A stretch of 38,121 nucleotides of DNA. It comes from Solirubrobacteraceae bacterium (GTDB lineage: Bacteria > Actinomycetota > Thermoleophilia > Solirubrobacterales > Solirubrobacteraceae). The stretch covers positions 1-38,121 of the forward strand of contig JADGPN010000008.1 in NCBI GenBank assembly GCA_017882465.1, in the 5' to 3' direction. The translations under genes and the position numbers were made by a program. This document shows positions 8,288-23,861 of this stretch, in pieces. Every line of letters starts with the position of its first letter. The first letter of the stretch is position 1. Below the pieces are notes generated by a model. That model was given only the letters and a program-made list of their open reading frames with translations, was not told the DNA's origin and searched no databases.

Positions 8288-8353
8288 ACCGCGTACGTGG
8301 TCGCGTACCCCGAGCGCGGGGCGGTCGCGCTCCGCCTGAGTAGAGTGGCCGGT

Positions 8354-9547: not shown

Positions 9548-9585
9548 TCGCAGCACACATCGGTACGCTTCGCGGACTCCACCCA

Positions 9586-9675
9586 GGAGAGGTGCCGGAG
9601 CGGTTGAACGGGCGCGACTGGAAATCGCGTAACGGGGGTTAACCTCGTTCGGGGGTTCGAATCCCCCCCTCTCCG
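9586..9675 (+). tRNA. tRNA-Ser (anticodon GGA)
   Basis: The acceptor stem GGAGAGG (9586-9592) pairs with CCTCTCC (9668-9674), with discriminator G at 9675. The anticodon stem CGCGA/TCGCG (9613-9617 and 9625-9629) encloses the loop CTGGAAA, giving anticodon GGA at 9620-9622, which reads UCC and UCU. A long variable arm (about 9630-9650), typical of serine tRNAs, and a T arm GGGGG-TTCGAAT-CCCCC follow. The 90-nt gene does not encode the 3' CCA, so it must be added by enzyme. Confidence 0.97.
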
Positions 9676-9731
9676 TTCGTTCTTCCAAGAGATCGACCGC
9701 GCACACACTCGTGCAGCCTGAGCCGGGCGAG

Positions 9732-9763
9732 GGGCCCCGCCCTCTGAGTCGAGGACGGGGCCC
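9732..9763. terminator. Strong hairpin between tRNA-Ser and the convergent minus-strand gene
   Basis: Arms at 9732-9744 (GGGCCCCGCCCTC) and 9751-9763 (GAGGACGGGGCCC) pair at 12 of 13 positions around a 6-base loop. The remaining pair is a G-U type. It lies between convergent transcription units and could serve both strands. There is no T-tract, so intrinsic termination in the classical sense is not assured. Confidence 0.7.
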
Positions 9764-9780
9764 TGGACGCGCCCCCAGGT

Positions 9781-10614
9781 TCAGTGGCTCGGGTGCCCGC
9801 GCCTGCGGTTGCGGGTCTTGAACGTAACGGTCTGGGTTGACACCGTCACGGTCCGCCGGTTGCCAAGTGCCTCGGTCACCCGGAGCTTGACCTCCAGCAC
9901 GTTTCGCGTCGCGAGCAGCTTCCTACCCGTGCGGTTCAGCGAGATCCGCACGGTCTTATTCTTGCCCGCGCTCAGCGCCACGCTAGCCGTGCCAACGACC
10001 ACGACCTTGTGCTTCCTGCGTCCGCTGTCGCGGGTCCTGCGTCCGCTGTCGCGGGCTGTGACCGCGATCAGCTTGTGGCCTTTGAACGTCTCGGTCACGC
10101 TCATGCTCAGAGCGAGCGTGCACTTGGCACCCGCAGCTCCGGCGCACGCTATGCGCACGCTCGCGTTCGTCCCTGAGACCTTCGCATGCCCGACCTTCGT
10201 GGTACCGGGTGCCAGCGGGCTTGTCGTCAGCGTCTGGTCGCCGCCGACGAGCTTCCCGAAGTCGCTCGCGGCCACGGCCCGGTAGTGGATCGTGGTCCCG
10301 GCGGGGAGGCCCGCGAGCTGCGCCGTGAACGGTGTCGCGACATTGGTCGGCGCGAGCTTCTGCGCCGCCGTGCTCTGCCCGTAGGCGGTCGTCGTGCCGT
10401 ACTCGAACGAAGCGTTCACTGAGGCACCCTGCGGATTCACCGTCCCGCTCAGCGTCGCCGCCAAGGTGGTGATCCCACTCGCCGCGCCCGTCACCGGAGC
10501 ATCCTGCTGGTAGGCGTCGGCGAACAGTGCGCGCGGGCTCGTCCCATTCGCAAACAGGAAGAACGGCGTCCCGACGGCCCCGCCCTGGCATGCCGCTCCG
10601 TCGGCGTTGAACGG
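9781..10614 (-). pseudogene. C-terminal part of the secreted repeat protein, detached by a frameshift
   Basis: This frame continues the 10491-12215 gene after one missing base. It opens directly after an in-frame TAG (10617-10615) and reads PFNADGAACQGGAVG, then a Fn3-like segment (LSGTVNPQGASVNASFEYG, then TTIHYRAVAASDFG). Such segments are common in secreted actinobacterial proteins. The end is basic and beta-rich (VALSAGKNKTVRISLNRTG), resembling the C-terminal tails of these proteins. It includes a 7-residue tandem repeat, RDSGRRT twice, from a perfect 21-bp duplication. No ribosome site or start belongs to this part; the first in-frame start is at 10494. Joined to the upstream part with one base restored, the full product would be 811 residues. 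Confidence 0.7.
10014..10055. repeat. Perfect 21-bp tandem repeat encoding RDSGRRT
   Basis: Two identical 21-bp units (10014-10034 and 10035-10055) lie inside the C-terminal coding part of the secreted protein and keep its reading frame. They add seven basic residues to an exposed-looking linker. Confidence 0.9.
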
Positions 10615-12215
10615 CTAGCGATGCGCGATGACGAGATCGGCTCGCGGACGTCGGCCTGGGCGGTCGGCGTCAGCGGCACGTTGCTCTCGTCGAGCACGAA
10701 CGTCGGATTCGCCGGATTGACGAAGTGACCGGCAAAGGCCATCACGACGCCGCCGCCAATGTCCTCACGCCATGATACGTATGGCGTGTTGCCCGAGAAC
10801 GTGATGTCCGGACGAGTCGAGTCGTTGGCTCCGGTCGAGATCGGGGCGCCGTTGTTGACCAGCTGGAAATGAGCGCTCGCCCCGGTGCCCACCAGCCGCG
10901 AGACGAACACCTGCTTCACGCCGCCGAGATCCTCGTCCCACACGACCCACGGGACTGTTGGATTTGCCGGGTTCATCGCGCCGGCTGCAACGCGCGGGTC
11001 CTCCGCGTCCTTGAGCGGGTTCTTGTTGAGGCAGCACTGCTCCTCGTTCGCGGCCGATGCGGCGCAGTTTCCGAACCCATTCGTTCCGGTCATGTCGAGC
11101 GTCCCGCTCAGCTGGCTGCCGACCGACACCCAATGGAAGCCGCCGTTGGCGCCGACGCCATCGCTGATCCCCTTGGCCGCGAACAACATCTCGTTGCTCT
11201 GCAGCCCCGAGATCGCGCTCGGGCCCTTCTCGTACCAGACGACCCACGGCACGCTGTCCTGGTTGCCGGTGAACGCGATGTCAGGCTCGATCCCGTCGCG
11301 GGTGGGATCGATGTTCAGGCTCGGGTCCGCGGCGCCGCTGCCGACTCGCGGGATCCCGGTCTGCTGCCAGCAGAAGCCGCCGATCGCCGGGACGTGCCCG
11401 GTCGCGTCGGGCACACCAGCAGGCTTGACGGTGTCGCAGTTGGCGCTTGCCGGGCCAATCGGTCGCTCGACGAAGATCTGGTCCTTGCCGCTGACGGGCA
11501 GATTGGTCGTCTCCTGCCAGGTGACCCAGGGTCCGGGCTTCGTGGGGTCGACCGCCGAGCCACCCGCCACGGATGGATTCTCGGCGCCCTGATCGGTGTG
11601 GATGTTGAGTGACGGGACCCGCCCGCCGCCGCCGGTACCGCGGCTCTGGCCACCGAAGATCCACTTGCCCTGATTAGCGTCGCCCGTGTTGTCGAAGCGG
11701 CTGGCGAACACGTTGTGGTTGCCAAAGCCCGTACCACTCGTGTTCTCGTACCAGGTCGCCCACGGAACCGTCCGTCCGGCTCCCGCGAAATCGATTGCGG
11801 GCGCTTCGCCAGCTTGGCCTTGATCGAAGTTCAGCGACCCCTTGAATGTGGGGCTGGCGCTCGACCTACCGCCCACCGTCCCGATGCCACGGGTAGTCCA
11901 CGCGCCGCCCGCGAAAGAACGCGAGAAGATCTGGTCCTGCGGCGGCGGCGATCCGTTCCTCTCCTGCTGGCGGAAGACTGCCCACGGGACGGCCGGCTTG
12001 CCGGCCGTGAGCGCGCCCCCAACAACGTCTGAGTTCGTCGGATCGTCTCCGTTCACGCTGATCGTCTTGTCGATCCCAGCTGCGAGATCGTCATTCACCT
12101 GTCCGCCGGGCGGGAGTGCCTGAAGCGCCGCCGCCGAGCTGGCGGTCGCGAGTGCGATCACCGACCCTGCGAGGGCGATCCGTGCCCGCCGAGATTTGTG
12201 CATTTGCATTCCCAT
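10491..12215 (-). CDS. Secreted repeat protein, likely beta-propeller, frameshifted near its 3' end
   Basis: A signal peptide is clear: basic start (MHKSRRAR), a hydrophobic stretch and an Ala-rich cleavage site near residues 28-31. The body carries about six copies, spaced at variable intervals, of a strand motif of the form VPWxxWxE (AVPWAVFRQQ, TVPWATWYENT, GPWVTWQETT, SVPWVVWYEK, TVPWVVWDED, TPYVSWRED). These suggest propeller blades of an extracellular protein. The genuine frame appears to end at about residue 534 (10614). The last 40 residues are Arg/Ser-rich noise caused by the loss of one C in the run at 10613-10614. The ribosome site AAGGAG sits 5 bases before the ATG. The ECF sigma and anti-sigma genes lie directly upstream on the same strand, so it may be their target. 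Ligand and role are unknown. Confidence 0.75.
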   Translation of the reverse strand: MGMQMHKSRRARIALAGSVIALATASSAAALQALPPGGQVNDDLAAGIDKTISVNGDDPTNSDVVGGALTAGKPAVPWAVFRQQERNGSPPPQDQIFSRSFAGGAWTTRGIGTVGGRSSASPTFKGSLNFDQGQAGEAPAIDFAGAGRTVPWATWYENTSGTGFGNHNVFASRFDNTGDANQGKWIFGGQSRGTGGGGRVPSLNIHTDQGAENPSVAGGSAVDPTKPGPWVTWQETTNLPVSGKDQIFVERPIGPASANCDTVKPAGVPDATGHVPAIGGFCWQQTGIPRVGSGAADPSLNIDPTRDGIEPDIAFTGNQDSVPWVVWYEKGPSAISGLQSNEMLFAAKGISDGVGANGGFHWVSVGSQLSGTLDMTGTNGFGNCAASAANEEQCCLNKNPLKDAEDPRVAAGAMNPANPTVPWVVWDEDLGGVKQVFVSRLVGTGASAHFQLVNNGAPISTGANDSTRPDITFSGNTPYVSWREDIGGGVVMAFAGHFVNPANPTFVLDESNVPLTPTAQADVREPISSSRIASRSTPTERHARAGPSGRRSSCLRMGRARAHCSPTPTSRMLR

Positions 12216-12351
12216 CAGATCTCCTTCGCTCGAGTTTCGTTCTCGAACGGATTACGGGCACCGCCTCAGACGGTTCGCGCCGGTTTGTGGCGACCACGCG
12301 CGGCGCATGGCGCACCGAGCGGCCGGGAACAAGCTCAGCGCCCAAGGGCTC

Positions 12352-13056
12352 TCAGTGCGCGGCGCGAATCGTCCCGACCAGCACGCGTCTGCCGGAGGAG
12401 GCCGGATCGCCGTTGGCCTGCTGCTGGGTGACGGTGAGGGTGCGGAACTGCGTTACCGGGACCCCAGACCACAGGGTCACGTGCTCGGCGTCGTTGAACG
12501 TACCGACCGGTACCAGAATCCCGGCGGCGTTCTTCAGCCACGCCTGGTAGTAGCGGCCGTTCGCACGGTGCGGCAGGCCCGTCGCCGCGAGCTCGATCCG
12601 CCAGCCGGAGGTCGTCTTCGTCAGCGTCGCCGAGCCGTGCGCGGCAGGCGCAAGCGGCGTGCCCGAGACGACCATGGCGAATCGCAGCGGCGTGGCTGAC
12701 TTGTTGCCAACGGCGAGCGCAACGATGACCGCTGCGACGGTCGCTGCCGCGAACGCGCCGAGCGCGAACGCGGGGCGACCGAAGCGGGAGCGAAGCGAAG
12801 GTGCCCTGCGGCGCGCGGGTCGAGTCCTCGCCTCGTCTGAGACCGCCGGTGCGGCAGCGCCGCCTGGCTGGTTTCGCGCTTCCTCAACGATCGCGTTGAC
12901 CACGCTATCTTCGAGCGCGGTGTCGGGCTCCTCCCAGGTGGCCGGCGTCTCCAGCAGCATGCGCAGCTCATCGAGCTCGGCGCGCTCATGCGGAGTGAGC
13001 GATCCGACAGCCTCACCCGACAGATACGCAATCCGGTCGCTATCGCTGGTGCTCAC
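12352..13056 (-). CDS. Anti-sigma factor, RskA-like
   Basis: The 234-residue protein has an N-terminal cytoplasmic helical region (about 1-65: DRIAYLSGEAVGSLTPHERA) that would hold the sigma factor. A Pro/Arg-rich linker and one membrane helix (about 95-117) follow. The extracytoplasmic C-terminal RskA domain (about 120-234) contains SGWRIELAATGLP and GRYYQAWLKNAAG. Unlike zinc-type anti-sigma factors it has no cysteines, so the HxxxCxxC motif is missing, as in RskA. It lies 46 bp downstream of the ECF sigma gene on the same strand, the usual arrangement of a sigma/anti-sigma pair. Release of the sigma factor would need regulated proteolysis of this membrane protein. The inducing signal is unknown. 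Confidence 0.9.
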   Translation of the reverse strand: MSTSDSDRIAYLSGEAVGSLTPHERAELDELRMLLETPATWEEPDTALEDSVVNAIVEEARNQPGGAAAPAVSDEARTRPARRRAPSLRSRFGRPAFALGAFAAATVAAVIVALAVGNKSATPLRFAMVVSGTPLAPAAHGSATLTKTTSGWRIELAATGLPHRANGRYYQAWLKNAAGILVPVGTFNDAEHVTLWSGVPVTQFRTLTVTQQQANGDPASSGRRVLVGTIRAAH

Positions 13057-13102
13057 TGATACGCCTCTTTCCGTTCCATACGGTAGACCACTGCGTCTCG
13101 GT

Positions 13103-13642
13103 TCATTCCCGTAAGTGCCCGAGCAGCGCCGCCAGGCGCTTGTGGGCCCTGAACGACCTCGATTTCACCGTCCCCACCGCCACTCCGAGCCGCTCCGCGA
13201 TGTCCACGTGCGTCATCCCGTCGAAGTGCTTCAGCCGGATGACCTCCTGCTCGTCAGCCGGCAGCCGCGCCACCGCCCGGCGAACCTCCCAGACGTCGGA
13301 GATCGCCTCCGCCGATTCCGGGCTGGAGATCAGCGACGGCTCGCTCGACGGGACCGAGTCCAGCGGGTCTGCGGCGCGAAGCGCCTCGCGGCGATAGAGG
13401 TCAATCGCGACCCGGCGGGCGATCGCGGCCAGCCAGGGCCCGAGCTCCCGCCGATCGTCAAAGCTCTGCGCAGCGCGCCACGCTTTCAGGAACGCCTGCT
13501 GGGTCGCTTCCTCCGCCAGCCCCCGCTCGCCCAGAACCTTGTACGCGACCGCGTACACGAGCCCCCCGTAAGAGCGATAGATCGAGCGCACGGCGTCGGG
13601 ATCGCCGTGACAAAAACGTCTGCGCAGCTCCCCTTCGAGCAC
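13103..13642 (-). CDS. ECF-type RNA polymerase sigma factor
   Basis: The 179-residue protein has the two ECF domains. Region 2 (about 15-85) includes YGGLVYAVAYKVLGE, AEEATQQAFLKAW and LAAIARRVAIDLYRRE. Region 4 (about 120-175) includes LPADEQEVIRLKHFDGMTH and the helix-turn-helix ERLGVAVGTVKSRSFRAHKR. Pairing with an RskA-like anti-sigma factor resembles the SigK/RskA class. The start is a GTG at 13642, which gives normal length. It leads a probable operon sigma, anti-sigma, secreted protein. Its own promoter probably lies in the 93 bp between it and the TetR gene; I did not find a convincing ECF motif there. Confidence 0.93.
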   Translation of the reverse strand: MLEGELRRRFCHGDPDAVRSIYRSYGGLVYAVAYKVLGERGLAEEATQQAFLKAWRAAQSFDDRRELGPWLAAIARRVAIDLYRREALRAADPLDSVPSSEPSLISSPESAEAISDVWEVRRAVARLPADEQEVIRLKHFDGMTHVDIAERLGVAVGTVKSRSFRAHKRLAALLGHLRE

Positions 13643-13735
13643 CGCGCGGACGCTACCAGCGCCTCCACGGCGGGATCAGACTCTCGTCGCCTTCTTCAAC
13701 AAGAGCCGCTGGAGCTGCCCAGCCGTTCAGCAACG

Positions 13736-14443
13736 TCAGAGCTCGAAGGAAGTCTCACCAAGCCCGCTCCCCTCGTCGCCGAGCAGGCGCGCCAGTCCCG
13801 GGTAGACCAGCTCCATCAGCCAGTCGGCGAGCGTCTCGGCCGGCACGCCCGGGTTGACTCGCCACCAGTGAGCGAGCCATTCGAAGGCGCCGTTGACCGC
13901 GTGCACGGCCGCCTCGAGCCGCCTCGCGTCGAGCTGCCGGCCCTGCCGCTCGGCGCGGTCGCGCAGGAGCGCGATCACCATCGCGTTCTGGCGCGCCCTG
14001 ATGTCGTTCAGGTGCGTTGTGTGCGGCGCGCCCCCCTCGTCGGCATACAGCATCGCCCACGCCGCCCGGTGGCCGTCGATGAAGTGGAAGAAGGCCACCG
14101 CGCCGGCGCGGAAGGTGGCCATCGGGTCGTGCTCGGAGGCAGTAGCCGCCGCGACGCACGCCGCCAACTCGTCGGCGGCGCGCTCGATCAGCCGGCGGTG
14201 GAGGCCCTCCTTGCTCTCGAACAGCTCGTAGATCAGGGGCTTGGAGACGCCGGCGCGGCGGGCCAGCTCATCCATCGAGGCGCCTGTATATCCGCGCTCG
14301 GAGAACAGCTCCTCGGCCAGGCCCAGGATCTGGCGCTCGCGCACCGGCCGCGGGACGCGCCCGTGGCGGTATCTCCCGACCTCGTCGAGCCCTCCGGTCC
14401 CGCCGAGGCGGCTCGTCTCGAGTCCTGAGTCAGACGCGCTCAT
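13736..14443 (-). CDS. TetR family transcriptional regulator
   Basis: The 235-residue protein has a 30-residue Gly/Arg-rich lead, then the TetR helix-turn-helix (about 35-80: RQILGLAEELFSERGYTGAS, then ELARRAGVSKPLIYELFESK). An all-helical ligand domain follows, with FHFIDGHRAAWAMLYADEG and an end at LARLLGDEG. TetR proteins repress until a ligand binds. It is divergent from the flavin monooxygenase gene, with a palindromic site between, so it most likely represses that gene and itself. The ligand would plausibly be the monooxygenase substrate (a ketone, steroid or other lipophilic compound), which is inference. Confidence 0.92.
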   Translation of the reverse strand: MSASDSGLETSRLGGTGGLDEVGRYRHGRVPRPVRERQILGLAEELFSERGYTGASMDELARRAGVSKPLIYELFESKEGLHRRLIERAADELAACVAAATASEHDPMATFRAGAVAFFHFIDGHRAAWAMLYADEGGAPHTTHLNDIRARQNAMVIALLRDRAERQGRQLDARRLEAAVHAVNGAFEWLAHWWRVNPGVPAETLADWLMELVYPGLARLLGDEGSGLGETSFEL

Positions 14444-14497
14444 ACGCGGAGTCTAGGAGGCGACGCGGGGTGTGATGGAACGCACACATGGACAGCT

Positions 14498-14515
14498 TAC
14501 CCTTGGTAGGTTACC
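14498..14515. promoter_or_regulatory. Candidate TetR operator between the TetR and monooxygenase genes
   Basis: TACC (14498-14501), GGTA (14505-14508) and TACC (14512-14515) alternate with a 7-bp period. They form two overlapping dyads, TACC-CTT-GGTA and GGTA-GGT-TACC. The site lies in the 106-bp divergent intergenic region, 35 bp before the monooxygenase ATG. Assignment to this TetR protein is by position. Confidence 0.6.
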
Positions 14516-14549
14516 TTTAGTCAGTCAACACCGCCGAGGGGAGAAGAGC

Positions 14550-16121
14550 ATGAGCACGACCACCGTCCGAGTTCCGCCCGGAGAACGCGCGATCGATGAC
14601 CACGCCGTCCCCGGCGTGAGCGACGGCGACGGCGACGGCGGTGTCTGGCGCGTCCGTGTGGCGATCGTGGGCACCGGCTTCTCCGGCCTCGGCATGGCCA
14701 TTCGCCTCCAGCAGGCGGGCATCGAGGACTACGTGGTGCTCGAGCGGGCCGACGACGTCGGCGGTACCTGGCGCGACAACACGTATCCGGGCGCGGCCTG
14801 CGATGTCCCGTCGCACCTGTACTCGTTCTCGTTCGCACCTAACCCGAACTGGACGCGAACGTTCTCCCGTCAGGCCGAGATCGAGACCTACCTGCGCGAG
14901 TGCGCCGAGCGCCACAGGGTGAGCAGCCACGTGCTCTATGGCCACGAGGTGACCGATGCGCGGTGGGTCGAGGACGAGCGGCGCTGGCACGTGAGCACGA
15001 GCCGCGGCCGGGTCGTGGCCGAGGTGCTCGTCGCGGGGATGGGGCCGCTCACCGAGCCGTCGATCCCACCGCTGCCCGGTCTCGATCGCTTCCAGGGCAC
15101 GGTGTTCCATTCGGCCCGCTGGGATCACCAGCACGACCTCGCGGGCGAGCGCGTGGCGGTGATCGGAACGGGCGCCTCGGCGATCCAGCTGGTCCCGCAG
15201 ATCCAGCCGCTGGTCGGCGAACTGCAGCTCTACCAGCGCACCGCGCCGTGGATCGTGCCTCGCAGCGACCGGCCGATCACGGCCGCCGAGCGCCTGCTCT
15301 ACCGCCACCTTCCGCTCGCCCAGCGCGCGGTGCGCTCCGGCATCTACTGGTGGCTGGAGTTGCGAGCGCTGGGGATGACCCGGCACCCGCGCCTGATGAA
15401 GGTCGCCGAACTGGCCGCCAAGCTGCACCTGCGGCGTCAGGTCGCCGATCCCGAGCTCCGAGCCAAGCTGACGCCCAGCTACACGATCGGCTGCAAGCGC
15501 GTCCTGATCTCGAACGACTACCACCCCGCGCTCACGCGCGAGAACGCCAACGTGATCACGGAGTCGATCGACGAGGTCCGTGACCATTCGATCGTCACCG
15601 CGGACGGAATCGAGCACGAGGTGGACACGATCATCTTCGGCACCGGCTTCCACGTCACCGACGCGCCGTACGCGAAGCTGGTCCGGGGCGCGGACGGCCG
15701 CACGCTCGAAGAGACCTGGAACGGCTCGATGGAGGCCTATCTGGGCACCACCGTGGCCGGCTTCCCGAACCTGTTCATCATGATCGGCCCCAACACCGGG
15801 CTCGGCCACACGTCGATGACGATCATGATCGAGGCCCACCTCGAGTACGTGCTCGACGCCCTGCGCACCATGGACGAGGCCGGGCTGGCCACCGTGGACG
15901 TCCGGCCGGAGGTCCAGGCCTCCTACAACGACGAGGTCCAGTCGGCGATGCGCCACACCGTCTGGAACCGCGGCGGCTGCGCGAGCTGGTACGTCGATGC
16001 CAACGGGCGGAACTCCACGCTGTGGCCGTCGTTCACGTTCCGCTTCCGGGAGCGGACCCGCCGCTTCCGGCTCGAGGACTACAGCGTGCGCAGCAGGGTG
16101 GCGGCGCCGGCGGCGGACTGA
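14550..16121 (+). CDS. Flavin-containing (Baeyer-Villiger type) monooxygenase
   Basis: The 523-residue protein has two Rossmann motifs: FAD-binding VAIVGTGFSGLGMAIRLQQ at about 36-54 and NADPH-binding RVAVIGTGASAIQLVP at about 203-218. Between them lies FQGTVFHSARWD, which fits the type I Baeyer-Villiger fingerprint FxGxxxHxxxW[P/D]. GGTWRDNTYPGAACDVPSH is the usual second FAD segment. Such enzymes insert oxygen next to a carbonyl, or oxygenate N or S, using NADPH and O2. The start at 14550 is chosen because GAGGGGAGAAG precedes it at proper spacing; an upstream in-frame ATG at 14472 lies before the operator and has no ribosome site. The TetR gene is divergent. Confidence 0.93.
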   Translation: MSTTTVRVPPGERAIDDHAVPGVSDGDGDGGVWRVRVAIVGTGFSGLGMAIRLQQAGIEDYVVLERADDVGGTWRDNTYPGAACDVPSHLYSFSFAPNPNWTRTFSRQAEIETYLRECAERHRVSSHVLYGHEVTDARWVEDERRWHVSTSRGRVVAEVLVAGMGPLTEPSIPPLPGLDRFQGTVFHSARWDHQHDLAGERVAVIGTGASAIQLVPQIQPLVGELQLYQRTAPWIVPRSDRPITAAERLLYRHLPLAQRAVRSGIYWWLELRALGMTRHPRLMKVAELAAKLHLRRQVADPELRAKLTPSYTIGCKRVLISNDYHPALTRENANVITESIDEVRDHSIVTADGIEHEVDTIIFGTGFHVTDAPYAKLVRGADGRTLEETWNGSMEAYLGTTVAGFPNLFIMIGPNTGLGHTSMTIMIEAHLEYVLDALRTMDEAGLATVDVRPEVQASYNDEVQSAMRHTVWNRGGCASWYVDANGRNSTLWPSFTFRFRERTRRFRLEDYSVRSRVAAPAAD

Positions 16122-16139
16122 GTCCCGTCCAGACGGCGC

Positions 16140-16493
16140 TCAGGGATCCTGCGGGCCGCGGGCCAATCCGAACGGGCTGCCCTCGGAGTCCCGGCAGATC
16201 GCGAAGGACTCGCCAGGGTGGATCACCGATCCGCCCAATGCCGTGACCTGCTCGAGGGCGGCGCCGAGGTCGGCGACCGCGAAATAGGGAAGCGAGACCG
16301 TGTCACCCGGCCCGCGCCCGCGCTCATGGATCCCCAGCGCCGGCCCCGCGCCGTGGGTCTGCCACCCGCGACCCTCGGCCGGCCCGCGGTCGTCGAGGCC
16401 CACGCCGAGCAGTCCCGACCAGAAGCTGCGTGCCCGCTCGGGATCGTCAGCCGGGAACTCGATCAGGGACAGGTGATGGGGCATCGGGTCCAC
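16140..16493 (-). CDS. VOC family protein (glyoxalase/bleomycin-resistance fold)
   Basis: The 117-residue protein is a single VOC domain made of two beta-alpha-beta-beta-beta modules. It opens with HHLSLIEFPADDPERARSFW. The second module contains YFAVADLGAALEQVTALGG, and it ends with ICRDSEGSPFGLARG, the typical final strand. Possible metal ligands include His in the first strand and Glu in the last (RDSEGSPF). The family covers glyoxalases, extradiol dioxygenases and antibiotic-binding proteins; the present one cannot be assigned further. It converges on the monooxygenase (18-bp gap) and diverges from the PLP decarboxylase with 54 bp between. A second ATG three codons on is possible. Confidence 0.87.
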   Translation of the reverse strand: MDPMPHHLSLIEFPADDPERARSFWSGLLGVGLDDRGPAEGRGWQTHGAGPALGIHERGRGPGDTVSLPYFAVADLGAALEQVTALGGSVIHPGESFAICRDSEGSPFGLARGPQDP

Positions 16494-16547
16494 GATAACG
16501 CGCCCGGGGCCCGCGGTCGGCTTGCGCCGGGATCTATTGTCACGTCA

Positions 16548-17879
16548 ATGGAAACCGACGACGTGGTCGATCGCGCCCAGCAGCTCGCCCGCGAGTACAT
16601 CTCGGGACTCGCCCGGCGGCCGGTCGGCGGCGCCGACGCACCGGGACTGCGCCGGCCGCTGACCGATGAGGGTCTCGACCCGATCGAGGTCCTCGAAGAC
16701 CTGGCGGCCGACGCCGACCCGGGCCTGGTCGCATCGGCCGGCCCGCGGTATTTCGGGTTCGTGGTCGGAGGCTCGCTCCCGGTGGCGACCGGAGCAGACT
16801 GGCTGGTCTCCGCCTGGGACCAGATGTCGGGGATGTACAGCTCATCTCCCGCCGTGGCGATCGCCGAGGAGGTGACCGCGGCCTGGATGCTCGAACTGCT
16901 CGGCCTGCCCGCGCTCGCCAGCTCGGGCTTCACCACCGGTGCCCAGATGGCGAACTTCACCTGCCTGGCCGCGGCGCGCGGCGCGCTGCTGGGCGCGTTG
17001 GGATGGGATGTCGAGGATCGCGGGCTGTTCGGCGCGCCCGAGATCGACGTGCTGGTGGGCGACGAGGTCCACGTGACGGTGCTGGTCGCGCTGCGCCTCC
17101 TCGGCCTGGGTGAGGCGCGAGTCACCCGCGTCCCGGTCGACGCCAACGGAGCGATGGATCCGGGTGCCCTACGCGAGGCGCTCCCCCCCGGCGGGCGCCC
17201 GTTGCTCGTGTGCGCGCAGGCGGGCAACGTCAACACGGGTGCGTGTGACCCGCTGGAGCCGATCGCCGAGATCGTGGCCGAGCGCGGGGGCTGGCTCCAC
17301 CTCGATGGCGCCTTCGGCCTGTGGGCCGCAGCCTCGCCCCGATTCGCCCACCTCGTGGCCGGTCGCGAGCGGGCCAACTCGTGGGCGCTCGATGCCCACA
17401 AGTGGCTCAACGTGCCCTACGACTGCGCGCTGGCGGTCGTCGGTGACCCCGAGGCCCACCGGCGAGCGATGACGCTGAGCGCCGCGTACCTGCAGGGCAG
17501 TGGGACGCGCGAGCCGGCGCAGTTCGTCCCCGAGGCCTCCCGGCGCGCTCGGGCTATCCCCGCGTACGCCGCGATCAGGTCGCTGGGCCGGCGCGGGGTT
17601 GCGGATCTGGTCGAGCGCTGCTGCGACCACGCCGCGATGATGAGCGCGCTGCTGAGCGAGGGCGGTCTGGAGCTGCTGGGCGACCTCGTGCTGAATCAGG
17701 TGCTCGTCGCCGCGGATCCCGGGCACGTCGCGCGCGTGCAGGCCGAGGGAACGTGCTGGCTCGGAGGCACGGTGTGGAGGGGCCGCGATGCGCTGCGCGT
17801 GTCGTTTTCGAACTGGTCCACCACCGAGGCGGACGTGCGGCGCTCGGCCCGCGCGATCCTCGAAGCGGCTCCCGGCTAG
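16548..17879 (+). CDS. PLP-dependent amino acid decarboxylase (group II, aspartate/tyrosine type)
   Basis: The 443-residue protein has the group II decarboxylase layout. A helical N-terminus leads to PRYFGFVVGGSLPVATGADW (about 66-85), then SGFTTGAQMANFTCLAAARG (the cofactor phosphate segment), HLDGAFGLWA (the aspartate that pairs with the pyridine ring) and DAHKWLNVPYDC, with Lys285 as the Schiff-base lysine. Members decarboxylate amino acids such as glutamate, tyrosine, tryptophan or DOPA; some act as aldehyde synthases. The substrate is not resolved. The start at 16548 fits family length; the frame is open further upstream but there runs through the VOC gene on the other strand. Its TAG stop overlaps the stop of the minus-strand gene at 17876. 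Confidence 0.88.
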   Translation: METDDVVDRAQQLAREYISGLARRPVGGADAPGLRRPLTDEGLDPIEVLEDLAADADPGLVASAGPRYFGFVVGGSLPVATGADWLVSAWDQMSGMYSSSPAVAIAEEVTAAWMLELLGLPALASSGFTTGAQMANFTCLAAARGALLGALGWDVEDRGLFGAPEIDVLVGDEVHVTVLVALRLLGLGEARVTRVPVDANGAMDPGALREALPPGGRPLLVCAQAGNVNTGACDPLEPIAEIVAERGGWLHLDGAFGLWAAASPRFAHLVAGRERANSWALDAHKWLNVPYDCALAVVGDPEAHRRAMTLSAAYLQGSGTREPAQFVPEASRRARAIPAYAAIRSLGRRGVADLVERCCDHAAMMSALLSEGGLELLGDLVLNQVLVAADPGHVARVQAEGTCWLGGTVWRGRDALRVSFSNWSTTEADVRRSARAILEAAPG

Positions 17880-18394
17880 GCGATTGCTGCGCTGGGCCCG
17901 TCGGGTCCAGGGGTGGGAATCGCGGTCTCACCGGAGGCCGCGGGCCGCGAGCCGGTGACCGGGATCCGGGCCACGGCGGGCGGGCGCGCAGGCGGGCGGG
18001 CGGGAGCCTCGAGGCGCTCGAGACCCTCGAGGCCCGAGAGCCTGAGCTCGAGCACCTGCAGGCGATCGCGCAGGAAGCCGCGCTCGTCCGCATGCTCGGG
18101 CGTGTCGGCAAGCCCGTCGATGCGCTCGAGGTCGCTGGCGATCAGTGCCCGGACGCCGTCGGCCAGACGCTGCCGGGCGGCTTCGATCCGCACGGCGTCA
18201 CCGGCCTCGACGGCCTCGCCCAGCTTCACGTCGGCGAGCAGCAGAGAATGCGGGAAACGGGGCGGCGGCCCCGCGCCCAGCACCTCGCCGTCGTTGGCGA
18301 GCCTGGGCAGGCTGGGTCCAAACGGTGACGCCTGCCTGCGGCTTGAGCGGAATGAGGACCCCACGGGATGTCTATCGGCGCGAGGCGCCCACAT
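17876..18394 (-). CDS. Hypothetical helical protein
   Basis: I do not recognise this protein. The core (SLLLADVKLGEAVEAGDA, then DGVRALIASDLERIDGLAD and FLRDRLQVLELRLSGLEGL) is strongly helical and Leu/Glu/Arg-rich, with a probable coiled coil near the end. The tail is Pro/Ala-rich and disordered. Codon third positions in the core are almost all G or C on this strand, which supports real coding. The first 40 residues look less coding, so the start is uncertain: ATG at 18394, ATG at 18436 or an internal GTG are all possible. Its stop overlaps the stop of the decarboxylase, tail to tail. Divergent position relative to the ATP-grasp cluster hints at, but does not prove, a shared control region. 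Confidence 0.5.
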   Translation of the reverse strand: MWAPRADRHPVGSSFRSSRRQASPFGPSLPRLANDGEVLGAGPPPRFPHSLLLADVKLGEAVEAGDAVRIEAARQRLADGVRALIASDLERIDGLADTPEHADERGFLRDRLQVLELRLSGLEGLERLEAPARPPARPPAVARIPVTGSRPAASGETAIPTPGPDGPSAAIA

Positions 18395-18436
18395 GTTTAG
18401 GTCCCGGATACGTGCTGCCGATGATCTGACCAGCAC

Positions 18437-18665
18437 GGGCGCGAATCGGCACCCGCCCGGCGACTCGAGTCTCGTCCAAGTTCCCTGGCCCTCCCTGATG
18501 CAGCTTTCCTGGCTTTCCCTGATCCAGCCGTTGACATGGCGCGGCGGGATTCATGAAACAAAGCGCGGATGCTAGCGGCACGATCACAACAAATGCACAC
18601 GTGTTCGGCCGCCCGGCGCTCGCGCCGTCTCGGCGTGACGCCATACTTCACGACGTGACGGACCG
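18437..18665. promoter_or_regulatory. Repeat-rich control region upstream of the ATP-grasp cluster
   Basis: No gene is seen here. The region contains an imperfect 24-bp tandem repeat (18484-18507 and 18508-18531, 19 of 24 identical) that runs directly into a consensus -35 hexamer TTGACA (18531-18536). A clear -10 is not evident. Further on are ACACGTGT (18597-18604), GGCGTGACGCC (18632-18642) and TCACGACGTGA (18648-18658). CGTGACG occurs twice 20 bp apart (18634-18640 and 18654-18660), two helical turns, just before the ATG of the ATP-grasp gene. These look like binding sites of a dimeric regulator, but none is identified. Confidence 0.45.
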
Positions 18666-21230
18666 ATGACCACGACCGTCCCGACGCCGTCGTACCGGCC
18701 ACTGGAGGGCTCCTACGACGAGATGCTCGACGAGGCTGGCCGGCCTCGAGAGCATTGGGCCCACCTGAGCGGTGCCCTGACCGAGCTGGGGCTCGAGGAG
18801 CTGATCCGCCGCCGTCAGGAGGCGGCGCGGCTGATCGATCAGGACGGCGTCGTCTACAACGCCTATGAGGGCTCTTCGCGGCCCGGCCGGCGCTGGCTGC
18901 TCGATCCCGTGCCGACGGTCGTCTCCAGCCGCGATTGGGAGGCCCTCGAGACCGGTTTGATCGAGCGCGCGGAACTGCTCAACCTGGTGCTGGAGGATCT
19001 CTACGGGGAGCGCGAGCTGCTGCGCCGAGGGCTGCTGCCGCCGGAGATCGTGCTCGGCCATCCGGGGCTTCTGCGCCAGTGCGATCAGATCCGGCTGCCG
19101 GGCCCACAGCAGCTGTTCAGCTACGCGGCCGACATCGGCCGCGACCCGGACGGGCAGCCGGTCGTGCTCTCCGATCGCGCCCAGGCGCCGTCGGGGTTCG
19201 GCTACGCGCTGGAGGCCAGGGCGGTGATCAGCCGTGTGTTCCCGACCCTGTATCGCGATGCCCAGGTGCACCGGCTGGCCCCGTTCTTCCGCTCGCTGCG
19301 CGTGGCCCTGCAGAGAGTGGCGCCGGCCGGGATCGAGGACCCGCGGGTCGTCGTCCTCACTCCCGGGCCATGGAACGAGACCGCCTTCGAGCACGCGTTC
19401 CTGGCCTCCACGCTGGGCTACCCGCTGGTTGAGGGCGCGGATCTGACCGTGCGCGGAGGGGCGGTGTGGATGCGGTCCCTCGGCCGGCTCGAGCCGGTCC
19501 ATGTCGTCCTCCGGCGCGTCGACGCGTCGTTCTGCGACCCGCTCGAGCTGAGGCCCTACTCCCAGCTCGGCGTTCCGGGACTCGTCGAGGCGACTCGCCG
19601 GGGCTCGGTCTCGGTCGTGAACACGCTGGGGGCCAGCGTGCTCGAGAACCCGGCGCTGATGGCGTTCCTGCCGCGGTTGTGCAAGCACCTGCTCGGGGGG
19701 CCGCTGCGGCTGCCCAGCGTCCCAACCTGGTGGTGTGGCGAGGTGCAGGCGCGGCGGCAGGTGCTGGCCAATCTCGCCGGCCTGGTGCTGCGCCCGGTGT
19801 CACGTGAGGCCGCTGCCACGGCGGTATTCGGCGCCGAGCTGAGCCAGAGGGAGCTCGACGATCTGCGGCGGCGCATCGAGTCGAGCCCTTCGGCCTGGGT
19901 CGGCCAGGCGCCGATCTCGCTCGCCTGCGCGCCGACGCTCACCGACGCGGGGCTGGAGCCCCGCCGGAGCGTGCTGCGCGCGTTCGCCGTGCCCCGGGGC
20001 GACTCCTACGCTGTGATGCCCGGAGGTCTCACGAGGGTGGCGGACGGCGGCAACAAGCGCATCTCGAGCCAGTCCGGCGCGATCAGCAAGGACACCTGGG
20101 TGCTCGCCTCCGAGCCTGAGCGCCTGACCGGATTCTGGCTCGAGTCGGGGCCGGCAGTGGAGGGCATCGACCCGATGACGTCGATCCCGTCGCGGGCCGC
20201 CGAGAACATGTGGTGGCTCGGCCGCTACGCCGAGCGTGCGGAGGCGATCACGCGCCTGGTGCGGGTGGTCTACGAGCGGCGCAGCGATTTCCAGGGCAGC
20301 GACAACGCCCCCGGGATCGAGGCGCTGAGAGCGCTGCTGGTGGCGCTGACCCGCACCACCGCCGCGTATCCGGGCTTCGTCGGCCAGGACGCCGAGGAGC
20401 GCCTGAGCTCACCCGGTCGCGAGCTGCTCGATCTCGTCGTCGACGACCAGCGCTCCGGCGGGCTGGCCCATTGCGTGCGGGCGCTGCTCGGGTGCGCCTA
20501 CGCTGTGCGCGACCAGCTCTCGAGCGACACATGGCTCGTCGTCGGTTCCCTGGACCGCGAGATCCTGGAGCTCCGCGGACCCGTGCACGACCCCCAGGCG
20601 GTGGTCCAGGAGCGCCTGCAGCGCGTGATGCAGAGCCTGCTCGCGCTGGGCGGCCTCGGCAGCGAGAGCATGGTCCGTGACCTCGGCTGGCGGTTCATGG
20701 ACGCCGGTCGCCGGATCGAACGCGCTCTACAACTGCTCGCGCTGCTGCGCGCAACGGTGACCGAGGCAGGCGGCACGGCCACCGACAGCCTGCTGTTCGA
20801 ATCGGTGCTCAAGGCGACCGAGAGCATAATCACCTACCGTCGCCGCTACCGCTCGCATGCGCAGCTCGAGACGATGCTCGATCTGCTGCTGCTCGATGAG
20901 GGCAACCCGCGGTCGCTGGCCTACGGGCTCGCCCGGCTCAGCGCTGACCTCGACTCGATCCCGGCCCATTCCGAGCGCCGGATGCGCGAGGAGCAGCAGC
21001 TGCTGCTGCGTGCCACCACGGCCCTGCGCCTGGCCGACACGGGCGCACTCGTGTCCCACGACGCCCGCGGCGCTCGGCCGGGGCTCGAGGCCTTCTTCGA
21101 CGAGCTGCACGAGCAGCTGAGCCGGACGGCGGACGCCGTCGACAGGACTCATTTCGCTCACCTCTTGCCGCAGTGGTCGCTGGTCGGAGCAGCCGGCTCC
21201 GGGTCCTCGCACGGAGGCATCGCGCGGTGA
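18666..21230 (+). CDS. Circularly permuted ATP-grasp / alpha-E fusion protein
   Basis: The 854-residue protein joins two domains that are separate genes in many bacteria. The N-terminal part (about 10-490) is a circularly permuted type-2 ATP-grasp (DUF404/DUF407). It contains GSYDEMLDEAG, DLYGERELLRRGLLPPE, YSQLGVPGLVEA and SVVNTLGASVLENPALMAFL, the last being the family's nucleotide/metal segment. The C-terminal part (about 505-835) is an alpha-E (DUF403) helical domain starting SRAAENMWWLGRYAERAEA. ATP-grasp enzymes join a carboxylate to an amine; this branch is predicted from gene context to make peptide or amide conjugates, with alpha-E as a partner domain. The substrate is unknown. The transglutaminase-like gene follows after 13 bp, so an operon is likely. 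Confidence 0.92.
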   Translation: MTTTVPTPSYRPLEGSYDEMLDEAGRPREHWAHLSGALTELGLEELIRRRQEAARLIDQDGVVYNAYEGSSRPGRRWLLDPVPTVVSSRDWEALETGLIERAELLNLVLEDLYGERELLRRGLLPPEIVLGHPGLLRQCDQIRLPGPQQLFSYAADIGRDPDGQPVVLSDRAQAPSGFGYALEARAVISRVFPTLYRDAQVHRLAPFFRSLRVALQRVAPAGIEDPRVVVLTPGPWNETAFEHAFLASTLGYPLVEGADLTVRGGAVWMRSLGRLEPVHVVLRRVDASFCDPLELRPYSQLGVPGLVEATRRGSVSVVNTLGASVLENPALMAFLPRLCKHLLGGPLRLPSVPTWWCGEVQARRQVLANLAGLVLRPVSREAAATAVFGAELSQRELDDLRRRIESSPSAWVGQAPISLACAPTLTDAGLEPRRSVLRAFAVPRGDSYAVMPGGLTRVADGGNKRISSQSGAISKDTWVLASEPERLTGFWLESGPAVEGIDPMTSIPSRAAENMWWLGRYAERAEAITRLVRVVYERRSDFQGSDNAPGIEALRALLVALTRTTAAYPGFVGQDAEERLSSPGRELLDLVVDDQRSGGLAHCVRALLGCAYAVRDQLSSDTWLVVGSLDREILELRGPVHDPQAVVQERLQRVMQSLLALGGLGSESMVRDLGWRFMDAGRRIERALQLLALLRATVTEAGGTATDSLLFESVLKATESIITYRRRYRSHAQLETMLDLLLLDEGNPRSLAYGLARLSADLDSIPAHSERRMREEQQLLLRATTALRLADTGALVSHDARGARPGLEAFFDELHEQLSRTADAVDRTHFAHLLPQWSLVGAAGSGSSHGGIAR

Positions 21231-21243
21231 GGCGCGAGACGCG

Positions 21244-22134
21244 ATGAGCACGACCTACCGCGTCACCCACCGCACCGAGTACCGGTACGAGTCCGATGTC
21301 TCCGACAGCTACGCGCAGCTGCATCTGCTGCCCCGCGACGGCGACGGACAGCACTGCCTGACCGCCGAGGTCGCCGTGGAGCCGGCGCCGGGGGACTACC
21401 GGGAGCGCGCCGACTACTTCGGCAACCGCGTCGGCTACCTCGCCATCCACGAGCCGCACCGCAGGCTGAGCGTGACCGCAACCAGCTTGGTCGAGACCGG
21501 AGATCGCGCCGCCCCGGTGACCCTGTTCGGAGGGCGTCCGTGGGAGGACGCGCGTGATGCCGTGCGCGACCCGGCCCTGCCCGCGCGGCTCGACGCGGTG
21601 CAGTTCGCGCTCGACTCGGCCCTCGTCGCCGGCTCGCCCGCCTACGCGGGCTACGCGCTCCGATCCTTCACGCCGCGGCGGAGCCTGCTCGAGGCGGTCA
21701 CCGACCTCTGCTCCCGGATCCACCACGACTTCGACTACCGGCCCGGCTCGACCTCCGTCACCACGCCACTGGAGGAGGTGTTCGCCAATCGCCGGGGCGT
21801 ATGCCAGGACTTCGCCCACTTCGGGATCGCCTGCCTGCGTTCGATCGGGCTGCCGGCCAGGTATGTCAGCGGGTACCTGGAGACCGATCCGCCGCCGGGC
21901 CGGCCGAAGCTGATCGGGGCGGACGGCTCGCACGCGTGGTTCTCGATCCTGGCCGGCGAGGCGGGATGGGTGGACGTCGATCCGACCAACGATCAACTGG
22001 CCGGTGGCCGGTACGTCGTGACGGCCTACGGCCGCGACTACGGGGACGTGGCACCGCTGAGCGGAGTGATCTACACCGAGGGCAGGACGGAGAGCCTGCA
22101 GGTGAGGGTCGACGTCGTCGCCGTCCCCGGTTAG
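21244..22134 (+). CDS. Transglutaminase-like cysteine protease family protein
   Basis: The 296-residue protein has the N-terminal beta-rich domain of bacterial transglutaminase-like proteins (about 1-100: YRVTHRTEYRYESDVSDSY, LHLLPRD, YFGNRVGYLAIHEPH). A papain-like core follows with the full catalytic triad: Cys187 (RGVCQDFAH), His230 (GSHAWFSI) and Asp246 (VDVDPTND). Bacterial members are usually predicted to be peptidases or amidases rather than crosslinkers. In the ATP-grasp/alpha-E context it is the likely enzyme that removes or transfers the conjugate. There is no signal peptide, so it should act in the cytoplasm. It lies 13 bp after the ATP-grasp gene and 29 bp before the metallopeptidase. 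Confidence 0.93.
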   Translation: MSTTYRVTHRTEYRYESDVSDSYAQLHLLPRDGDGQHCLTAEVAVEPAPGDYRERADYFGNRVGYLAIHEPHRRLSVTATSLVETGDRAAPVTLFGGRPWEDARDAVRDPALPARLDAVQFALDSALVAGSPAYAGYALRSFTPRRSLLEAVTDLCSRIHHDFDYRPGSTSVTTPLEEVFANRRGVCQDFAHFGIACLRSIGLPARYVSGYLETDPPPGRPKLIGADGSHAWFSILAGEAGWVDVDPTNDQLAGGRYVVTAYGRDYGDVAPLSGVIYTEGRTESLQVRVDVVAVPG

Positions 22135-22163
22135 CCGCAGACCGATCGAGGTATCAATCCCGG

Positions 22164-23183
22164 ATGCGCGCGTTCACCTGCAACAACTGCGGCCAGCTGG
22201 TCTTCTTCGAGAACAGCCTCTGCCTGCGCTGCTCGACCGAGCTCGGGTTCGTCCCATCGCAGCTCGACATCCTCGCGCTCGACCACCACGGCCCGGCTCA
22301 GGTGCGCCGCTGCGCCAACGCGGTCGTGGCGGGCTGCAACTGGATGCTCGAGCCGGGCGAGACGGGGCCTCTGTGCCGCAGTTGCCGCCTGACCCGGAGC
22401 CGCCCCGCCGACGAGGACCCCGACGGACTGGCCGCCTTTGCCAAGGCCGAGGCGGCCAAACGGCGCCTTCTGTTCGGGCTCATGGATCTGGGGCTCCCGG
22501 TGGAGTCCGGCGGGCTGCAGTTCGACCTGCTGCCGAGCCGGACGGCCCCGGTCGTGACCGGCCACGCCGACGGCCTGATCACGATCGATCTGGCCGAGTC
22601 CGACGACGCACGGCGCGAGCAGCGCCGGGCGGAGCTGGGTGAGCCCTACCGCACGATGCTGGGCCACTTCCGGCATGAGGTCGGGCACTACTACTGGCCG
22701 ATCCTGATCGAGCGAACGGGAGAGCTCGAGCGCTGGCGCCGGCTGTTCGGCGACGAACGCGCCGATTATGACCAGGCGCTGCAGCGTCACTACGAGCGGG
22801 GGCCGACGGCCGACTGGAGCGACCGGCACGTGAGCGCCTACGCGACCATGCATCCCTGGGAGGACTGGGCCGAGACGTTCGCGCACTACCTCCACATTCG
22901 CGACACCCTGCAGACGGCGGCGGCCTTCGGGCTGTTCGTGACCGGCCCGCGGGAGACGGGCGACGCCTCGTTGATGGCGGCGCCGGCCGAGGACACGGGC
23001 GAGGGATCGTTTCGGGCCGTGATCGGCGACTGGCTCCCGCTCACCTACGCGCTCAACGCGGTCAACCGCAGCCTGGGTCGCGACGACCTGTACCCCTTTG
23101 CGCTGGCGCCCGCCGTGATCGACAAGCTCTCGTTCGTCCACGACCGGGTGCGAGCCGGCCGGCTCGTCGCGGGCGGAGGATGA
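22164..23183 (+). CDS. Zinc-ribbon putative zinc-binding metallopeptidase
   Basis: The 339-residue protein begins with a zinc ribbon: Cys6 and Cys9 (CNNC), Cys20 and Cys23 (CLRC). A second Cys set follows (RRCANAVVAGC, then CRSC at about 72-75). The catalytic segment FRHEVGHYYW places His171, Glu172 and His175 as an HExxH motif, with a downstream Glu/His-rich stretch (HPWEDWAETFAHYLH) supplying a third ligand. This matches the putative zinc-binding metallopeptidase family. No signal peptide is seen. It is last in the tight ATP-grasp, transglutaminase, peptidase series, which suggests it matures or degrades the product of that pathway. The start at 22164 has only a distant GAGG upstream, so translation may depend on the preceding gene. 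Confidence 0.9.
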   Translation: MRAFTCNNCGQLVFFENSLCLRCSTELGFVPSQLDILALDHHGPAQVRRCANAVVAGCNWMLEPGETGPLCRSCRLTRSRPADEDPDGLAAFAKAEAAKRRLLFGLMDLGLPVESGGLQFDLLPSRTAPVVTGHADGLITIDLAESDDARREQRRAELGEPYRTMLGHFRHEVGHYYWPILIERTGELERWRRLFGDERADYDQALQRHYERGPTADWSDRHVSAYATMHPWEDWAETFAHYLHIRDTLQTAAAFGLFVTGPRETGDASLMAAPAEDTGEGSFRAVIGDWLPLTYALNAVNRSLGRDDLYPFALAPAVIDKLSFVHDRVRAGRLVAGGG

Positions 23184-23306
23184 CGAGCGGTTCCACAGGA
23201 CGGCGTACGCGCGGTCCGCTGATGCGCCTCTATGTATACAAAGCTGGCGAGCGCGGCACTTGTCCACCATCCAAGTAGCTTTTACATCTATCTTTCCAAG
23301 GCTGCC

Positions 23307-23861
23307 ATGAGAAACGAACCGCAAGCTCGGCCCCAGCTGCGCCTCGTCGCAGAGCCGCTCGACCGGCCCCAAGACCGGGCGTGGTTCTGCGGACACTGCG
23401 CGGCGCCGGCACCCGAGCCGACGGCGCCCACGGCCCGGGTGTGCCCCGGGTGCGGTTTCGGCGTCCTGCTCGCGGCACGCGTGGACGTCGTGCCCGGCCG
23501 GTGCGACGCGTACATGGTGATCGACTCCTCGCTGCTCGTTCAGGTGCTCTCGCGCGGCGCCGAGAACCTGCTCGCGGTGCCCGAGGAACTCGCCATCAAT
23601 CGGTCCTTCGCCGAGCTGCTCGCCCCGGCGGATGCCGAAGCCAAGGGCAGCGGCCAGCTGGCCAGCGCGATTGCCGCCGCGGCCGCGGACGACGAGGTCA
23701 GCTTCCACGTGCTGGTACGGCCCTGGAACGTGTTCGGCGTCCGGATGCGCGCGAAGGTTGCGCCGTGCGGGCCGCCCCGCGCCGCTCTGATCGTGCTCGA
23801 GCCGGCGAACGCCCTGCGGGCTGTGCCCGACGCCCGGGGCCCGCAGCGCGACAAGCGCTGA
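23307..23861 (+). CDS. PAS-like domain protein with N-terminal zinc ribbon
   Basis: The 184-residue protein starts with a short basic lead and a zinc ribbon (WFCGHC, then VCPGCGFGVLL; two CxxC pairs). A PAS-like domain follows (about 70-175), with MVIDSSLLVQVLSRGAENLL, SFAELLAPADAEAKG and a final strand AALIVLEPAN. I recognise the pattern as one found in Thermoleophilia-type actinobacteria, but its function is unknown; it may sense a ligand or redox state and bind a partner through the ribbon. The start at 23307 follows CCAAGG with 6-bp spacing. An in-frame ATG at 23232 would add 25 residues of non-family sequence. The upstream stretch 23231-23306 is AT-rich compared with the region and probably holds the promoter. 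Confidence 0.72.
   Translation: MRNEPQARPQLRLVAEPLDRPQDRAWFCGHCAAPAPEPTAPTARVCPGCGFGVLLAARVDVVPGRCDAYMVIDSSLLVQVLSRGAENLLAVPEELAINRSFAELLAPADAEAKGSGQLASAIAAAAADDEVSFHVLVRPWNVFGVRMRAKVAPCGPPRAALIVLEPANALRAVPDARGPQRDKR

Follow-up and report, generated by a model that had tools for sequence, protein, structure and literature searches.

Does a three-gene cluster in a Solirubrobacteraceae bacterium, encoding a circularly permuted (CP) ATP-grasp fused to an alpha-E domain, a small transglutaminase-like protein and a zinc metallopeptidase, make and remove an amide product on its own? The cluster lies on contig JADGPN010000008.1 (assembly GCA_017882465.1), and all positions without further label refer to the whole 38,121-nt stretch analysed, here called the window. 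Iyer et al. in their 2009 work on amidoligases reportedly predicted that clusters of CP-ATP-grasp, alpha-E and transglutaminase make and process peptide-like conjugates, and an earlier reading of the window (the original prediction) took the trio for a complete pathway of this type. In this study, we found that the fused domain keeps the glutathione synthetase fold and is without the nucleotide/metal site, and that this loss is a trait of the whole fused subfamily. On our best reading, the locus represents an accessory form of the predicted CP-ATP-grasp/alpha-E/transglutaminase amide system that lacks both DUF2126 and Anbu. The computed evidence for this reading consists of the fold, the missing catalytic residues, the conserved swaps, co-occurrence and the presence of an intact split copy.

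All three genes are on the plus strand with gaps of 13 bp (genes 1 and 2) and 29 bp (genes 2 and 3), and a coding-potential gene caller selected exactly the same three frames. Gene 1 encodes a single protein with matches to CP_ATPgrasp_2 (PF14403, E 3e-144, residues 83-459) and Alpha-E (PF04168, E 2e-72, residues 508-830), gene 2 matches Bact_transglu_N and Transglut_core (PF08379 and PF01841), and gene 3 matches the zinc ribbon PF10005 and, over the full length of the profile, Peptidase_Mx (PF15887, E 4e-98). The transglutaminase triad C187/H230/D246 is invariant among 13 homologues. In Peptidase_Mx, the motif H171-E172-x-x-H175 and eight zinc-ribbon-type cysteines are invariant among 12 homologues, and E233/E237 are present. 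No signal peptide was obvious at the N-termini of the three proteins as judged by eye. Accordingly, the gene order and spacing, the intact Cys-His-Asp triad and the HExxH peptidase of the original prediction are confirmed, and its lack of signal peptides agrees with this inspection by eye.

The AlphaFold2 (AF2) model of the fused protein (predicted local distance difference test score, pLDDT, 90.2) has a fold of the glutathione synthetase/glutathionylspermidine synthetase type. Structure matches include 3n6x (Z 44.9), the human enzyme (2hgs, Z 24.2), yeast glutathione synthetase with AMP-PNP and two Mg (1m0w, Z 23.3), 2ioa (Z 20.6) and E. coli Gss (Z about 20.5). Matches of the Alpha-E domain to cytochrome bd and receptor helices (Z about 9-11) were set aside, this level being expected for any helical bundle. 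Glutathione synthetases have acidic Mg ligands, phosphate lysines (K305/K364 in the human enzyme) and a conserved G-loop (PMC2845819); our site assignment agrees with these Mg ligands and lysines, the positions having been equated via motif and fold and not by residue-level superposition.

As references for the alignment of the ATP-grasp domain, the solved 3n6x and the intact split paralogue on contig C706 of the same genome were used. The window protein resembles these split enzymes in fold with 34-38% identity, whereas they carry intact E-x-N, DDK, G-loop and HVDLR motifs and no alpha-E fusion. The metal motif E-x-N reads LEDN in the C706 copy and LSDR in the window protein, while ADDK is replaced by LENP, with P329 taking the place of the lysine. 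The second lysine and Gly-rich loop are VVKP..SGGKG in the split copy versus VLRP..AAAT in the window (Arg; REAAAT), RHVDLRPF has become RRSVLRAF with loss of the Asp, and NSSQGGGSKDTW in the split copy contrasts with SSQSGAISKDTW in the window protein. Still conserved are the acceptor-side residues R283, R284, D286, D291, P292, R438, R457, K475 and D476. The Alpha-E motifs WLGRYAERAE (517-526), GRRIER (681-686) and DxxNPR (744-749) are intact as well, with R520, R524 and G681 invariant and E523, E685 and R725 conserved to >90% (n=68). Most likely, the fused protein thus keeps its fold, its likely acceptor-side residues and its alpha-E domain, and the usual ATP-Mg binding is predicted to be impossible. 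The 'ligase-type ATP-grasp fused to alpha-E' of the original prediction is correct as to fusion and fold and unconfirmed as to ligase type, the catalytic residues being gone.

A scan of genome contigs yielded 80 fused loci, from phyla including Actinomycetota, Pseudomonadota, Acidobacteriota, Bacteroidota, Planctomycetes, Verrucomicrobia, Chloroflexota and Binatota. Together with plasmid and same-family members, 96 fused rows, which include the window and a few genomes appearing twice as near-identical records, were compared with 29 split proteins. The metal-ligand Glu is retained in 2/96 fused proteins, the metal-site Asn in 1/96 (Arg in 90/96), and both the first ATP lysine (DDK) and the Asp of HVDLR in none, whereas each of the four is present in 29/29 split proteins. 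One arm of the scan used a peptide pattern containing DR; a search bias toward the pseudo-motif was excluded because the 41 of 96 fused proteins without this pattern are degraded to the same extent, so the residue loss is no search artefact. A full-text literature search that did not cover Iyer et al. 2009 turned up no earlier remark that the fused version is inactive.

This loss bears directly on the idea of the fused protein as an active amidoligase within a trio that forms a self-contained make-and-remove pathway. Family and operon context do fit the predicted peptide-conjugation system, and the fold matches glutathione synthetase, but the Mg ligands, the first ATP lysine and the Gly-rich loop are missing from the window protein and from virtually all of the 96 fused proteins while 29/29 split proteins keep them, and no DUF2126 is encoded genome-wide. 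We consider this model hardly credible. The complete pathway fails because the nucleotide/metal site of its 'ligase' is gone; DUF2126 and Anbu, ordinarily the amidoligase partner and the hydrolase of such systems, are absent too, and the intact CP-ATP-grasp belongs to a separate cluster. An ATP-grasp without nucleotide-binding residues in an alignment, as found here, is what the original prediction had itself named as evidence against it.

What remains of the site is not random. Among 110 columns conserved in the split proteins, 53 remain so in the fused ones, 13 have taken on a different conserved residue (including N175 to R171 and D331 to E327) and 15 are unconstrained. The columns conserved in both groups and those swapped and reconserved point to a function without the ATP site, and the conserved Asn-to-Arg and Asp-to-Glu swaps indicate a stable pseudo-ATP-grasp. 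Such conservation of replacement and acceptor-side residues could also reflect altered chemistry, in which the remodelled site (R171, E327, conserved RRxD...DP and KDTW) would catalyse with another activated donor, or perform hydrolysis or transfer. However, we know of no catalytic ATP-grasp without a metal site, and the fused proteins of loci L156-L159, in which the G-loop stretch is apparently deleted, are hard to reconcile with catalysis there; we regard altered chemistry as unlikely. A working non-catalytic protein is favoured because of the conserved swaps together with the intact alpha-E domain. The fused genes of L156-L159 sit directly after a split ATP-grasp and alpha-E and represent an extreme case of the pseudo-domain.

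With moderate confidence, we therefore read the locus as part of a DUF2126- and Anbu-less amide system whose fused pseudo-ATP-grasp acts non-catalytically with the split enzyme, as scaffold, receptor or regulator. Judged from the sequences, the fused protein is probably the non-catalytic partner of the intact split ligase encoded elsewhere in the genome. No active CP-ATP-grasp or DUF2126 ligase was found within the window cluster, which holds the pseudo-site only; the intact split copy lies on C706 in a separate cluster with its own alpha-E and transglutaminase, the latter continuing on contig C699 (join inferred from synteny with G129, a genome of the same genus). Pi release from ATP is documented for a split ATP-grasp of an Anbu operon (PMC6376114). 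The survey covered 296 genomes from the phylum of the window; among named organisms, the fused protein has its nearest relatives in Actinomycetota. The split copy is present in 16/16 fused-bearing genomes (Fisher test, 9e-15), and the fused gene occurs in 11/11 DUF2126 genomes (1e-16) and in 13/17 Peptidase_Mx genomes (8e-17); these p-values ignore kinship among genomes.

Several observations weigh against this reading. The split copy is not adjacent to the window cluster, so the case for cooperation of fused and split proteins rests on co-occurrence. The survey totals (fused 16, split about 46, DUF2126 11, Mx 17) derive from split, fused and other classes set by score, identity and frame length, not by gene-by-gene inspection. 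The metal-site Asp survives in 88/96 fused proteins and the second lysine in 68/96 (Arg in the window), so fused proteins may bind nucleotides weakly or in an unusual manner. Biochemistry for any fused member was not found in the literature. Also, Mx occurs alone in many genomes, which makes its link with the system a statistical one.

A third CP-ATP-grasp type, not fused to alpha-E and with LEDN intact, was seen in L005 (G000:C146, 2809-3618), L055 (6921-8345) and L056 (7034-8404); DDK and G-loop are also intact where the sequence is complete. A gene of the shared family c28 adjoins it in L056 and lies nearby in L005.

Passages of PMC5666114, PMC6376114 and PMC3597751 credit the CP-ATP-grasp/alpha-E/transglutaminase systems to Iyer et al. 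2009. Placing the trio among them, as originally proposed, is supported by the alpha-E domain with its ER motifs, the triad transglutaminase and the neighbours in nearly all 80 fused loci. Like the Anbu operons of Y. bercovieri and others (CP-ATP-grasp/alpha-E/transglutaminase/Anbu; PMC6376114, PMC5666114), the window combines a homologous ATP-grasp fold, alpha-E and a transglutaminase-like protein in one cluster. It differs in that the ATP-grasp is fused to alpha-E and has lost its ATP site, the genome has no Anbu, and a zinc metallopeptidase completes the cluster instead. Proteasome-fold proteins (PF00227) were detected neither in the window genome nor in five relatives, and Anbu is therefore absent from these genomes. 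With the DUF2126 operons (TGase-DUF2126/fused CP-ATP-grasp-alpha-E/small TGase, TGase denoting transglutaminase; e.g. Granulicella L065, Azospirillum L066) the window shares orthologous fused and small transglutaminase genes in the same order, whereas the window and its genome lack the TGase-DUF2126 protein of about 1,100 aa and the window adds Peptidase_Mx.

The neighbourhoods of the 80 fused loci were counted by eye from a printed list, some flanks ending at contig ends. The small transglutaminase adjoins the fused gene in nearly all of them, TGase-DUF2126 lies upstream in about 57/80, a split ATP-grasp/alpha-E pair is found in the flank in about 22/80, and Mx is nearby in 5/80 (L092, L125, L126, L128, L135). 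Across the phylum, Mx co-occurs with the fused gene and lies within about 10 kb of a fused or DUF2126 gene in nine survey genomes.

A fused gene without DUF2126 was found in the window genome, G402, G441, G300 and G330, and additionally in G129. No PF09899 match exists at the locus or anywhere in the window genome. With eight DUF2126 proteins, tblastn matched only the window's own transglutaminase (domain homology), so the idea that a DUF2126 remnant precedes the fused gene was rejected. The trio could accordingly be a relic, i.e. a non-functional remnant of a larger operon retained in the window lineage after loss of DUF2126. In most related loci the fused gene is preceded by DUF2126, which is absent from the window genome and G129, and the fused gene is missing from the other genus members searched. 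Nevertheless, all three frames are intact with 52-66% identity to their G129 orthologues, the active sites are conserved in two of them, and the near-complete genome G402 carries the same DUF2126-less trio. We regard a relic as very improbable.

In the mechanism that we propose for the non-catalytic partnership, the split CP-ATP-grasp (C706) would activate a carboxylate with ATP and form the amide. The fused protein would dock via alpha-E and bind or present the substrate, or regulate the complex, and the transglutaminase-like Cys enzyme would act on the same amide by transfer or hydrolysis. Peptidase_Mx might trim the product or its protein carrier, thereby standing in for Anbu; product removal by this peptidase, as originally proposed, is a guess. 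Its AF2 model (pLDDT 80.5) gave a best Foldseek E of 0.12, with gluzincin-type entries among the weak matches, sequence searching gave no relative of solved structure, and the literature yielded no functional study of the PF15887 family ('putative zinc-binding metallo-peptidase'). On plasmid loci L070, L071, L073 and L074, a lone Peptidase_Mx has neighbours such as Hsp20, glycogen debranching enzyme, cold-shock and general stress genes.

More tentatively, the fused CP-ATP-grasp/alpha-E proteins of many phyla could be an ancient neofunctionalised pseudo-ligase that serves as receptor or allosteric subunit. In place of the ATP-Mg site it would carry a conserved Arg (formerly Asn) and Glu (formerly Asp of DDK), and the split ATP-grasp, as well as DUF2126 where present, would depend on it for substrate selection. 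Under its database name, 'circularly permuted type 2 ATP-grasp protein', the fused protein invites ligase assays. Should it be a pseudoenzyme, such assays are bound to be negative; activity should then be sought with the split enzyme or DUF2126, the fused protein being supplied as a subunit. The DUF2126-less genomes (window, G129 and G402, the first two also Anbu-less) suggest a reduced set of parts, a start for a genetic test. No report on the substrate was found in the literature, though the genes occur across many bacterial phyla, and none turned up on their presumed counterparts in M. tuberculosis.

In G165, the closest relative, orthologues of the window genes at 8297-9547 and 23439-23861 lie only 526 bp apart (L169, 2465-2991), so about 13.9 kb including the cluster are absent there; CP-ATP-grasp had no match in G165. 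A search of eight genomes of the genus found the fused gene in that of the window and in G129 only. The window protein is 67% identical to that of G119, from another genus, versus 56% to that of G129, and the tree leaves them unresolved, so both transfer and differential loss are possible. The cluster hence lies in an accessory segment, which may have been gained by transfer or kept through differential loss. A contaminant contig was ruled out: its NuoG is closest to that of same-genus members and the sole full-length copy, which assigns the contig to the genome, and the flanks are syntenic with G165. G129, a complete-looking genome of one contig, has no full-length match to NuoG, which is present in other genus members.

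Table. Features of the cluster and the segment enclosing it (window numbering).
Feature	Position	Strand	Basis
Fused CP pseudo-ATP-grasp (aa 83-459) and Alpha-E (aa 508-830), 854 aa	18666..21230	+	Pfam, AF2, residue comparison
Small cytoplasmic transglutaminase-like protein, 296 aa, triad C187-H230-D246	21244..22134	+	Pfam, homologue alignment
Zinc ribbon (8 Cys) and Peptidase_Mx, 339 aa, HExxH at 171-175	22164..23183	+	Pfam, alignment, AF2
S169-D170-R171 in place of metal-binding E-x-N	19170..19178	+	Fused versus split survey
E327-N328-P329 in place of D-D-K (K, first ATP-phosphate lysine)	19644..19652	+	Fused versus split survey
Degraded Gly-rich loop, VLRPVSREAAAT versus VVKPTSESGGKG in own split copy	19785..19820	+	Own-genome and survey comparison
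Alpha-E domain, ER motifs intact	20187..21155	+	Pfam, homologue conservation
Accessory segment of ~13.9 kb enclosing the cluster	9548..23438		No counterpart at syntenic site of closest relative

Downstream of the trio, the open reading frame 23308-23861 has an apparent zinc-ribbon N-terminus, and its orthologue in G165 lies beside the empty site. The segment also holds a flavin monooxygenase-like protein (14550-16121) and a pyridoxal phosphate-dependent decarboxylase (16548-17879), as well as calls that by eye resemble a sigma factor (13103-13591) and a TetR-type regulator (13736-14443).

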